Positions 58,721-61,860 of a DNA stretch of 64,000 nt are shown in pieces; within the stretch, counting starts at the first letter, position 1; every line of letters begins with the position of its first letter. Source of the stretch: Undaria pinnatifida (Eukaryota; Sar; Phaeophyceae; Laminariales; Alariaceae); the NCBI GenBank assembly GCA_012845835.1, contig JABAKD010000029.1, positions 9,784,231-9,848,230 of the forward strand, in the 5' to 3' direction. The notes beneath the pieces are model-generated. The model was not told the origin of the DNA. It saw only the letters and a program-made list of their open reading frames with translations, and searched no databases. The position numbers and the translations under genes are program-made.

Positions 58721-58909
58721 GGATCGCATACATACGTGGGTAGGGTGCCTTGAACGACTTTCTCTGTTTGTGTGTGTTTGTGTGCGTGATTGTGTAAGAC
58801 AACATTTTTTTCGGCCCACGTTTGTCCACCGCACTCAACGTACACGGCAACGTACACGGCACCGAGGCCAGTCCCGACAGGTTTCGTGAACGCACAAAAA
58901 ACAGACAAC

Positions 58910-59295
58910 TGTTGTTGTTGAGGAATTAGTGGGGTATTATAGTCTGTTTGGCCATTTCCAAAGGGTTAACCAATAGCTTACCCATACTAAGCCTTATAAC
59001 ACTCTCCCCCCCTGGAACGGCGGGATAGCAGGTCGGCCGGATATACCGGCGGATCTGTCAATACATCCTGAAGCGGTTTAATTTCCCGAGTATACCGGGG
59101 AGAGTATTTTTCAAGTTCGACATGGGGAAAGTCTGAAAAAGTTTATTATAGGTGGATGTGGGATTTGAACCCACGACCCAAAAAAAACATGGTCTGTCGA
59201 CGACGCCATTTCTTAAGGAATTAGTGGGGTATTAGTCCGTTTGACCACTTGCGAAAAGGTTAACCAATAGCCTACCCAAACTAAGCCTTATAACA
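58910..59295 (-). mobile_element. TRIM copy 1 (miniature LTR retroelement with tRNA 3'-half)
   Basis: Short LTRs (58910-59001 and 59211-59295) read, on the minus strand, from TGTTATAAGGC to the (C)CTTAACA region. Just inside the 5' LTR (minus strand) is TGGCGTCGTCGACAG (primer-binding-site-like), then GTGGGTTCAAATCCCAC and ATCCACC (T-arm and 3' acceptor strand of a tRNA), and before the 3' LTR a CAGGGGGGGAGAG purine tract. Flanks CAAC (58906-58909 and 59296-59299) are a 4-bp target duplication. No coding capacity. The outer terminus has a small GTT expansion. Confidence 0.85.
59163..59181 (-). other. tRNA-like T-arm/B-box inside TRIM copy 1
   Basis: GTGGGTTCAAATCCCAC forms a 5-bp stem with a 7-nt loop and contains a perfect RNA polymerase III B-box core (GGTTCAAATCC), continued by ATCCACC, a tRNA acceptor strand. 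No matching GGTGGAT 5' strand, D-arm or anticodon arm is present, so it is not a functional tRNA. Confidence 0.75.
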
Positions 59296-59299
59296 CAAC

Positions 59300-60136
59300 T
59301 CTATTTTTGAACAACTGGTTTCGCTGTAAGTCCTTGAGAGTTCGTCGAGGCAGGTGGGGCAACGTGTGTTTTCACCGCCACCCAAACTGGGTTCCTCTTG
59401 AAAATATATTTTTTCGAGTTTTCAAAACATCGTACCAACATACCAGAACAACTGAGAAACACTGCTGAACCGCGACATCTGTCCAATAATCGACAGCACG
59501 CGTGATGAAACGGCCATTTTTTTTCTCCTTTATAAAAAGTGAAAAACGCCAGCTGTGAGTGCGACCAACTGAACGGTTGAAACTCAAATTTGCAAGCTGC
59601 GTGGTACATCTATGTTTCGTTTATAATATACAGAGAGTAGTAGTTGCACAAAAATTACGGAAGGTCGTTTTTTGTTCAATTTTTCCGAGGAAAAAAAAGT
59701 AGAAGAGTTAGTTCCGCCCCACATATAATACCCGAGCAACCGCCGCACGATATGCCGACAAGCCCACAAAAAAAAGCTCGTCGAGAATAAGCCCACAATA
59801 CCCACAAGCCCACAAGCGCGTCGAGAACAACAACAACATCATCTCTCCGCCACCATGCCCTTTTCATTCGGAATATACACCCAGAAGCGGCGACGTCGAA
59901 CCTACGGGTACACCCTCAATTCGAATCGAGGTACAACGACCTCGGCGACCTGTCCAATCCAGATATGGGTGGCCGCGCCGCGTAAATGTTTACGATCTCG
60001 AGCAGCTTCAGCAGAACGAATCCGGAGCCAATCTACCGCAGGAGCAATTAATTGGTTCTGGGACGCGCTCAATGCCAATACATTACAATATACATTGCAA
60101 GGAACGTTACTCCATATATGATGCATCGCAGATATG
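59300..60136. other. Spacer between TRIM copies, no supported gene
   Basis: Ordinary-looking DNA with short frames on both strands. A plus frame from ATG at 59855 (88 codons) has no recognisable features. Confidence 0.4.
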
Positions 60137-60140
60137 ACTA

Positions 60141-60511
60141 TGTTAAGGAATTAGTGGGGTATTAGTCGGTTTGACCACGTGCAAAAGTTAACCAATAGCT
60201 TACCCAAACTAAGCCTTATAACACCCTTCCCCCCCTGAAACGGCGGGATAGCAGGTCGGCCGGATACACGGGCGGACCTGTGAATTATCCAAGACGTTTC
60301 ATTTCCTGGGTATACCGGGGAGAGTTTTTTCAAGTTCGACATGGGGAAAGTCTGAAAAAGTTTATTCTAGGTGGATGTGGGATTCGAACCCACGACCCGA
60401 ATAAACATGGTCTGTCCACGGCGCCATTTGTTAAGGTATTAGTGGGGTATTAGTCTGTTTGACCACGTGCAAAGGTGGACCAATAGCTTACCCAAACTAA
60501 ACCTTGAAACA
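60141..60511 (-). mobile_element. TRIM copy 2
   Basis: LTRs 60141-60223 and 60429-60511. Same order: TGGCGCCGTGGACAG primer site, tRNA T-arm GTGGGTTCGAATCCCAC with ATCCACC, and a purine tract GGGGGGAAGGG. Target duplication ACTA (60137-60140 and 60512-60515). Confidence 0.85.
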
Positions 60512-60734
60512 ACTACCGCAGCAGGTATTGAGGCCGCGGCGCCTCATTACCACCAATTACTAGTACGATACCTGGTATTACAAAGAAATACAACAAAGCA
60601 AAGCGGCGGAAGAAGGCAAAAACAAATCAGGCACCTAGCTAGGTGTTCTTCGACGACGCTTTCTGCGGCGTTTTCAGGCATATTTATGCGGTATCGCTGT
60701 ACTGATGTACGGAAAGGGCAATATTTAGAACAGA

Positions 60735-60815
60735 TCTAGCCTCTCATGTCTGGTTTCACCGGCCAGGCAGATATTGCGTGCAGCACAAATAAAGGTCTAG
60801 AGAGGGGGGGGGGGG
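60735..60815 (-). repeat. Poly-C-ended dispersed repeat, short inverted copy
   Basis: GTTTCACCGGCCAGGCAGAT matches the reverse complement of the core at 29907 and lies beside a run of about 14 G (60806-60819). Confidence 0.5.
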
Positions 60816-61150
60816 GTCTTTCTTTAGTCACATTCATTCACGCCCTTTACTTTCTGCCGTGGCGTCTTCGGCCATACACTGGCGCATCCTCAGGTTTTTG
60901 CAGCTGCTGCTATTAATAATGTGCTACTCGAGCGGTAACCTGGATACGACACAGAAACTGGGCATTGTGGGAACGTCACCGATCACCGACTGACTATGTA
61001 TGGCGAATGGCGAATGGCGAAGAATATATTAATACTATAGTCTAGACTAATAGCATTATTATTATATTTTTTATCGGTTGACCTGGGTGCCGCGATGCTC
61101 CTGACTTATCATGGAGTGCAAGTGCGATCAGGTCGTTTCTGCGTTTTCAA

Positions 61151-61860
61151 GACATCCCAAGGCATCCTGATACACGCATTTCGAGGTTCGGGGGGGGGGG
61201 GGGGGTGTTTAAATAACACAGTTCGTTTTACTTGATTTTTACGCCAATATTCGCGCATTATGTCGCAGTTTTTTCGCCCCCGACGGCGTCCTCCGGGGGC
61301 GACATCCCAAGGCATTGTTAGTAAGATATTAGTGGGGAATATTACTAGTCCGTTTGACCACGTGCAAAAAGTTAAGCGATAGCTTATACCCAAACTAAGC
61401 CTTATAACACTCACCCCCCCTGAAACGACGGGATAGCAGGTCGGCCGGGTATACGGGCGGACCTGTCAATATCCAAGCGGTTTCATTTCCTGGGGATACC
61501 GGGGAGACTCTCAGAGTATTTTTCAAGTTCGACATGGGGAAAGTCTGGAAAAATTATTGTTTTGGATGGTCGGAATCGAACCCACGACCCAAAAAAACCA
61601 TGGTCCTTCGACGACGCCATTTGTTAAGGTATTAGTGCGTTATTAGTCCGTTTGGCCACTTGCAAAAGGTTAACCGACAGCTGACCCAAGCTAAGCCTTA
61701 TGACAGCATCCTGATACACGCCTTTTCGAGGTTCGGGGGAGGCGTTTAAATATTAAACGCAGTTCGTTACATATATCCATCGTATTTAGGCGTATATTCG
61801 CGCATAAATCGAATTATTTTCGCCTCCGGCGGCCCTCACGGGGGGGGGCTCCGCCCCGCG
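61151..61860. repeat. Tandem duplication of about 155 bp interrupted by TRIM copy 3
   Basis: GACATCCCAAGGCATCCTGA and TTTCGAGGTTCGGGG, CAGTTCGTT and TATTCGCGCAT recur in order at 61151-61310 and 61301-61315 plus 61706-61860. Both units contain CGCCnnCGGCG-type palindromes. Confidence 0.85.
61316..61705 (-). mobile_element. TRIM copy 3
   Basis: LTRs 61316-61409 and 61622-61705. The tRNA-like arm is decayed (GTGGGTTCGATTCCGAC). Target duplication GCAT (61312-61315 and 61706-61709). The insertion point is the junction of a tandemly repeated unit, whose other junction (61151-61180) is uninterrupted. Confidence 0.88.

Follow-up and report, generated by a model that had tools for sequence, protein, structure and literature searches.

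In the Helenus group of terminal-repeat retrotransposons in miniature (TRIMs), a tRNA-derived sequence with both the A and the B box is carried in the long terminal repeats (LTRs), and the hosts reported in the available part of that account are fungi, animals, and one lycophyte, with brown algae not among them (Kojima 2024, PMC10886601). Three copies of a comparable element are present in the window, a 64,000 nt stretch of the genome of the kelp Undaria pinnatifida. They are like Helenus in being short, non-coding LTR elements with a primer-binding site (PBS), a polypurine tract (PPT), and a tRNA-like sequence in which the core of the B box is kept, and in having target site duplications (TSDs) of 4 bp, as do the animal families of Helenus (PMC10886601). 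They differ in that the tRNA sequence, a 3' half, lies between the PBS and the PPT, and in that the kelp LTR is not recognised as a tRNA (PMC10886601). With its tRNA inside the element and an LTR that does not resemble a tRNA, the kelp TRIM does not fit the definition under which Helenus was published. The original prediction, made from the bases of the window, knew of no TRIM family into which half a tRNA is built. Given the tRNA sequences in the LTRs of Helenus (PMC10886601), this claim is too broad, but the internal half does differ from these and adds a place in which TRIMs carry captured tRNA, one outside a definition based on tRNA in the LTR. Cassandra and Ajax are likewise TRIMs with captured small-RNA sequence, but theirs is 5S rRNA in the LTR, where the kelp element has an internal tRNA half (PMC10886601).

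In the standard scheme of reverse transcription, plus-strand synthesis copies 18 nt of the primer tRNA and is then halted by the 1-methyladenosine at position 58 (m1A58) (PMC13191261). Plus-strand synthesis past position 58 into the primer tRNA is described for HIV-1, and in this the kelp is similar, but the HIV-1 over-extension is seen in vitro or in TRMT6 mutant cells and, in the available text, only stops in the T-loop are called productive, whereas kelp products that reach the 5' end of the tRNA sit in the genome (PMC13191261). The tailless retropseudogenes of mammals are also genomic retro-copies of small RNAs, but they are described as products of long interspersed nuclear elements, and the available part of the description makes no mention of modification or inosine (PMC5322556). 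The main text of a 2025 account of Ectocarpus elements, in the part available, contains neither 'tRNA' nor 'primer binding' (PMC12477816). A search of the open-access literature, which covered the titles and abstract starts of the papers listed and had subscription papers outside its scope, found no internal tRNA half in a TRIM, no integrated whole-primer tRNA beside LTRs, and no integrated over-extension products with modification marks. Of the two features of the kelp family, the internal half and the presence in the genome of the primer tRNA itself, with what appear to be traces of its modification pattern, the second is the more surprising.

The TRIM family and its primer

The sense of all three window copies is the minus strand, such that the LTR to the left on the plus strand is the 3' LTR (Table 1). 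They are two-LTR elements of 371–390 bp, with LTRs of 83–94 bp and no coding capacity, and within each the order is a PBS 2 bases inside the 5' LTR, a sense tRNA T-arm, the 3' strand of the acceptor, a G-rich PPT, consisting of a run of G followed by AGAG adjoining the 3' LTR, and the 3' LTR. The TSDs, given on the plus strand, are 4 bp and perfect in all three, and the same three were recovered in the sense of the element. Among 34 copies from the genome, picked for likeness to copy 1 and with nine copies of the L077 array omitted, although members of short tandems are still included, a 4 bp TSD is present in 15, as against 15 of 1,122 mismatched flank pairs (1.3%), and a 5 bp TSD in none. 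With a PBS complementary to the 3' end of a host tRNA, a PPT, and a TSD of constant length, the window elements are by their anatomy a non-coding TRIM family of U. pinnatifida. This confirms the three LTR miniatures of the original prediction at their predicted positions, while the T-arm and acceptor strand predicted for each are intact in copies 1 and 2 and are present in copy 3 in decayed form. Neither ARAGORN nor Rfam at its gathering score called a tRNA anywhere in the window, which is as expected for an element that carries only a tRNA half, and a permissive Rfam scan gave matches to the tmRNA T-arm (E about 0.001) at 59158-59175 in copy 1 and 60377-60394 in copy 2.

The genome searched was 511 Mb in 68 contigs. 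A search with copy 1 gave at least 61 matches from the 40 places scored out of 3,327 candidates, some of them in head-to-tail arrays with a period of 290 bp. The LTR end, the start of the PBS, and the T-arm occur together at fixed spacing 442 times, as exact matches, and the reversed control has none, so that the arrangement is beyond chance. A second pattern, blind to the half and made up of the LTR end, the PBS start, and the trailer that follows the half, has 1,057 matches, again with none for the reversed control. It avoids the bias of the samples of 34, 35, and 43 copies, all picked for likeness to copy 1 (the 35 being the 43 without eight array copies). The T-arm is present in 99 of the first 100 of these 1,057 matches, the lone exception being L119; this is an upper view, since copies with a clean loss of the whole half would fall outside the spacing of the pattern. 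The half is thus a standing part of the element, which bears out the prediction of a family with a tRNA half built in, and the expectation that most copies would lack the segment if the prediction were wrong is not borne out.

The PBS, TGGCGTCGTCGGCAGGAC, is complementary to the 3' end of tRNA-Ser with its CCA, as judged from the genes L115-L117. These are tRNA-Ser(AGA) genes in which the CCA is not encoded. Six tRNA-Ser gene sequences, of which three were read with their flanks, end CCTGCCGACGACG, and all six gene matches end before the CCA. The genes read TGCC at positions 8-11, and there were no matches to a pattern with TGGC there. Among the first 100 of the 1,057 TRIM matches, the PBS has the exact form GGCAGGAC in 17, a diverged GACAGAC form in 61, and some other form in 22. 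Where it is exact, the match to the tRNA ends just before position 58 in 16 of 17 cases, the remaining one being L119. By this complementarity the primer is identified as tRNA-Ser(AGA), and the family would be moved in trans by LTR-retroelement machinery that makes 4 bp TSDs and primes with this tRNA.

Copies of the primer tRNA in the genome

A pattern reaching past the PBS has 48 matches in the genome, of which 30 loci were read. In these the complementarity to tRNA-Ser runs on from the PBS past primer position 58, often reaching about nt 26-37 in the anticodon arm and sometimes nt 1, the 5' end of the tRNA. Such over-extended copies follow the LTR ends of at least four families, that of the window and at least three others. 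The internal half, by contrast, is a sense sequence and differs from the primer, so the suggestion that it is a relic of primer copying does not fit. Such copying is nonetheless seen in the same family, in the antisense tRNA-Ser that follows its LTR.

The sequence beyond the 18 nt PBS matches the primer tRNA and has both the CCA and differences of a kind that modified bases would give. When 17 full-length, non-gene copies of tRNA-Ser are compared with the six gene sequences, position 26 differs in all 17 (A in 15, C in one, T in one), position 34 also in all 17 (G in 15, C in two), and position 58 in 13 (T in eight, deleted in three, G in one, C in one), the A being kept in four. At the other sites 40 of 935 cells differ, a background of 4.3%. 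The L079-L108 sample, which has two copies in common with the 17, agrees: position 34 is G in 16, C in eight, T in one, and A in none of 25 copies, and position 26 is A in all eight copies that extend past nt 20, after LTR ends of families A to D. In eukaryotic tRNA-Ser, N2,N2-dimethylguanosine (m2,2G26), inosine at the wobble base, and m1A58 are expected at positions 26, 34, and 58. The presence of the CCA, together with changes at these three sites, suggests that the template of the whole-tRNA copies was likely the mature, modified tRNA, copied past position 58 by reverse transcriptase.

An LTR family could be matched for 13 of the 17 copies and the CCA complement is exact in 15. In the 15 that were newly fetched, BLAST matched 11 to LTR ends of families A-C, six of these being of the window's family, and all but L128 and L129, which are each off by one base, have the exact CCA complement (13 of 15); the other two copies both have an LTR end and an exact CCA complement. 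By eye, L124 ends like family A, while L129-L131 share another end (..TTATTATACATG) that adjoins the full-length tRNA-Ser copy and may be a further LTR end. In L129 the 5' end of the tRNA abuts GAG and the start of the LTR of the window's family. A C in place of G is found at position 34 in the read-through copies L080, L084, L089, L091, L093, L096, L098, and L099. The L105 locus (L105:1501 and L105:2347, C30:10219853-10220699) has another LTR family, with an LTR of about 490 bp, in tandem at a period of 846 bp, and each unit carries the complement of tRNA-Ser to about nt 26-27.

Integrated LTR-tRNA products

Three insertions that contain a whole tRNA begin at the TG of the LTR and have duplications of 4, 4, and 6 bp. 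L136 is 261 bp and consists of an LTR, the whole tRNA, and an inverted LTR, with a TSD of CTAG and arms that are 95% complementary over 79 nt. L135 is 219 bp, with an LTR, the tRNA, part of an inverted LTR, and a U5 end, and a TSD of CTAA. L140 is 170 bp, with an LTR and the whole tRNA flanked by the direct repeat AGCTAG. The fold-back junction in both L135 and L136 is CGACGAC followed by GCCATTT, which is what back-copying from a tRNA-shaped end would be expected to give. A DNA copy of the whole tRNA may fold like the tRNA, with its end CGACGAC pairing with GTCGTCG in its own PBS. The paired end could then prime copying back into the LTR, generating an LTR-tRNA-inverted LTR molecule with an LTR end on each side that would be competent for integrase. 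Over-extended strands that do transfer may instead land downstream by microhomology and so give rise to altered internal regions, as perhaps in L119, L089, and L079. L119 has both LTRs and the usual trailer, with the tRNA half replaced by the complement of tRNA-Ser to about nt 28.

Other joined structures are present. L080/L081 (C1:448116-448214) is a head-to-head palindrome of LTR, antisense tRNA-Ser 3' half, anticodon loop, sense 3' half, and inverted LTR. L103:1501-1900 and L104 (C29:2848869-2849184) contain a 291 bp repeat made up of antisense tRNA-Ser, to about nt 26-27, then the CCA end of the tRNA in sense, and then more repeat sequence. In L101:1501-1700 (C27:5434854) an LTR of the window's family with the 3' part of tRNA-Ser lies head-to-head with an inverted family B LTR.

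Short interspersed nuclear elements (SINEs) have reportedly been proposed to derive from tRNA and U5 strong-stop DNA. The whole-tRNA copies might accordingly be read as an ordinary tRNA-Ser-derived SINE beside LTR-like sequence, there being tens of copies with CCA and an LTR sequence that could pass for a SINE tail. A SINE would have one fixed tail, but the adjoining sequence is here the ends of at least four LTR families, in PBS register, and the tRNA part is of no constant length, often stopping close to the anticodon arm. With the three insertions starting at the LTR TG with their 4, 4, and 6 bp duplications as well, a SINE is very improbable.

The explanation as a whole, of a TRIM that has a sense tRNA half inside it and is primed by tRNA-Ser(AGA), with over-extension past position 58 and the snap-back and transfer steps suggested here, is given a probability of about 0.75. 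The further proposal, that kelp reverse transcriptases regularly copy the whole modified primer, that snap-back products are inserted by integrase, and that the T-arm half arose by the same template switching and was kept or rewritten as a mimic, may hold with slightly less than an even chance.

Several observations weigh against these interpretations. Four of the 15 newly fetched copies (L124, L129-L131) were not matched to a known LTR end by BLAST. The C at position 34 (in two of 17 and eight of 25 copies) is not explained by inosine; a serine primer with a CGA anticodon is a possible source, and no tRNA-Ser gene with this anticodon is among the tRNA genes recovered. Some copies were set aside whose match stops at or near the site itself, as their final base could come from the sequence joined there: L090 and the two L105 units, ending at nt 26, have G at 26; L091, ending at nt 24, has C at 26; and L101, ending at nt 34, has A at 34. 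The copies may also have been inherited and not be independent events, in which case binomial significance would be overstated. No TSD was seen for L137, L138, and L139, which are three of the six whole-tRNA insertions of the window's family, nor was there a convincing one for those copies of the L079-L108 sample with a recognised LTR start. The arms of L136 differ at five sites, so it may have formed by the joining of two molecules. Searches of open reading frames and Pfam near related LTRs did not find an autonomous partner for the TRIM family: none of eight open reading frames there has a Pfam match, and the one RVT_2 domain is on the opposite strand, close to L094. As regards the half, L119 appears from its sequence to have the anatomy of a complete TRIM without it, pattern searches of the genome found no tRNA gene whose 5' acceptor would match and make it the source, and in the 35-copy sample the half does not exceed the remainder of the element in overall conservation.

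In a genome with many over-extended products, in which inosine, m2,2G, and m1A are legible as base changes, this step of reverse transcription can be studied by sequence alone. Such products would be a concrete source for mobile sequences headed by a tRNA and, if the explanation is true, the LTR-tRNA and LTR-tRNA-inverted-LTR insertions are a genomic archive of tRNA modifications.

The internal tRNA half

Among the 63 tRNA matches of the genome that were listed, the best partner of the half is tRNA-Ala(TGC), with 25 of 28 nt identical from the variable loop to the discriminator and one paired change in the T-stem. The check for a matching tRNA gene, proposed with the original prediction, thus gives a near relative among the tRNAs recovered and no exact source. 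Genome patterns of the acceptor GGTGGAT with the T-arm GTGGGTTCGAATCCCAC, with its A variant, and with wider spacing had no matches in any case; the wider spacing admits the 41 nt gap seen in Ala tRNA, while the other two had a minimum of 42 nt. A pattern of D-arm and T-arm has six matches, all in a dispersed tRNA-derived repeat (TAGCTCAGTGGGTAG...GTCGTGGGTTCGAATCCCACC; L109-L114) with the same T-arm as the TRIM half and a different acceptor. The two may share an ancestor, which is not proof of the source.

Mean identity to the majority base in the 35 copies is 0.944 for the half, 0.951 for the other internal sequence, and 0.952-0.961 for the LTRs. The half is therefore not conserved above the rest, as had been suggested as a test of the prediction, but its variable sites are the degenerate sites of a T-loop. 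Sites 57, 59, and 60 vary in 49%, 42%, and 32% of 76 distinct rows, and the other 16 of the 19 T-arm sites in 0-8%. Indeed, site 57 is a purine in 75 of the 76, site 60 a pyrimidine in 75, and site 59 any base, while position 58 is nearly constant (74 of 76). A minor frequency of at least 0.2 is found in 14 of 370 alignment columns in the 35 copies, three of which are these sites, and there are at least 11 combinations of the three on mixed backgrounds. That the variable three of 19 sites should be the degenerate ones has a chance of 1 in 969 by placement alone. Variability of the form R57/N59/Y60 is the general rule for tRNA T-loops. Constraint on a master copy, or repeated rewriting from cellular tRNAs, fits this pattern better than plain drift; a few subfamilies are a possible source. 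An effect of m1A or of a kissing loop was considered as its cause and rejected, since position 58 is nearly constant and the sites that vary are those that are free in tRNAs.

On this evidence it is tentatively suggested, at somewhat short of even odds, that the half was gained by template switching and is retained so that the element RNA has a hairpin mimicking a tRNA, rather than as a promoter for RNA polymerase III (Pol III), perhaps with a role in packaging, primer recruitment, or stability. The T-loop pattern makes such a function testable. The half might instead be a passenger, a single old capture copied along with the element, with the 57/59/60 pattern coming from a few subfamilies. 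This would account for its being as conserved overall as its surroundings, for one apparently young subfamily (TTCGATC) dominating the identical rows, and for L119, which is without the half, but it sits poorly with the number of 57/59/60 combinations on mixed backgrounds and with high variance at just the three degenerate sites, where the R and Y alphabets are kept, and is possible but on balance unlikely.

Pol III and the B box

The B-box consensus is GWTCRANNC, and the variation of the TRIM T-loop matches it. It could be that the element RNA starts from the internal B box together with an A box located in the LTR or PBS, in a Pol III-driven TRIM (TRIMp3), as in Helenus and Cassandra. The T-arm variation is in favour of this, and an A-box-like sequence, TGGTCAAACGGA, with one mismatch to the A-box consensus, is present in the LTR of most sampled copies; one such mismatched box somewhere in 84 bp is not rare, however, and a permissive Rfam scan found no tRNA family match in the LTR. 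Of the first 100 of the 1,057 rows, 96 were parsed, and 89 of these have a run of four or more T's between the PBS and the B box. A run of T4-T6 comes after the half in every one of the 31 copies parsed out of the 43 (T5 in 29), and the sequence CCTTTTG is in the LTR ahead of the A-box-like site. With T-runs on both sides of the half, the full element is not likely to have a Pol III promoter, so that its transcription as a whole by Pol III is judged unlikely from sequence, the internal Pol III signal of the original prediction is not upheld in this sense, and a Pol III-driven TRIM is quite improbable. By eye the LTR has a D-arm-like GCTTAGTTTGGGTAAGC, and the idea that it is a hidden tRNA was dropped, as Rfam does not support it.

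The half may be a candidate site for TFIIIC or another B-box protein, steering chromatin position or integration and not transcription. The B-box invariants are kept, there is no clear A box at tRNA spacing, and the T-runs would stop Pol III. The fold of a T-loop needs the same invariants, though, and this reading is improbable.

Features of the window and other observations

Table 1. Positions of the three TRIM copies and their parts in the window (all on the minus strand).
Feature	Position	Strand	Remarks
TRIM copy 1 (LTR-PBS-tRNA half-internal-PPT-LTR)	58910..59295	-	TSD CAAC, 58906-58909 and 59296-59299
Copy 1 5' LTR (element sense)	59211..59295	-	
Copy 1 3' LTR (element sense)	58910..59001	-	
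Copy 1 PBS, variant of tRNA-Ser 3'-end complement	59191..59208	-	TGGCGTCGTCGACAGACC
Copy 1 tRNA 3' half in sense (T-arm, which includes the B-box sequence, and 3' strand of the acceptor)	59151..59179	-	T-arm 59158-59176 intact; nearest tRNA Ala(TGC)
Copy 1 PPT	59002..59012	-	
TRIM copy 2	60141..60511	-	TSD ACTA, 60137-60140 and 60512-60515
Copy 2 PBS, variant of copy 1 PBS	60409..60426	-	
Copy 2 sense tRNA 3' half	60370..60398	-	T-arm 60377-60395 intact
TRIM copy 3	61316..61705	-	TSD GCAT, 61312-61315 and 61706-61709
Copy 3 PBS, variant of copy 1 PBS	61602..61619	-	
Copy 3 sense tRNA 3' half, decayed	61562..61590	-	T-arm 61569-61587; T-stem and acceptor decayed

Elsewhere in the genome, L077:1-3301 (C22:2479800-2483100) has about nine head-to-tail units of the window's TRIM, each of one LTR and the internal sequence with a period of 290 bp, and resembles a satellite born from a TRIM. 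Between the TRIM copies of the window there are long poly-G runs at 60804-60816 and 61190-61205.

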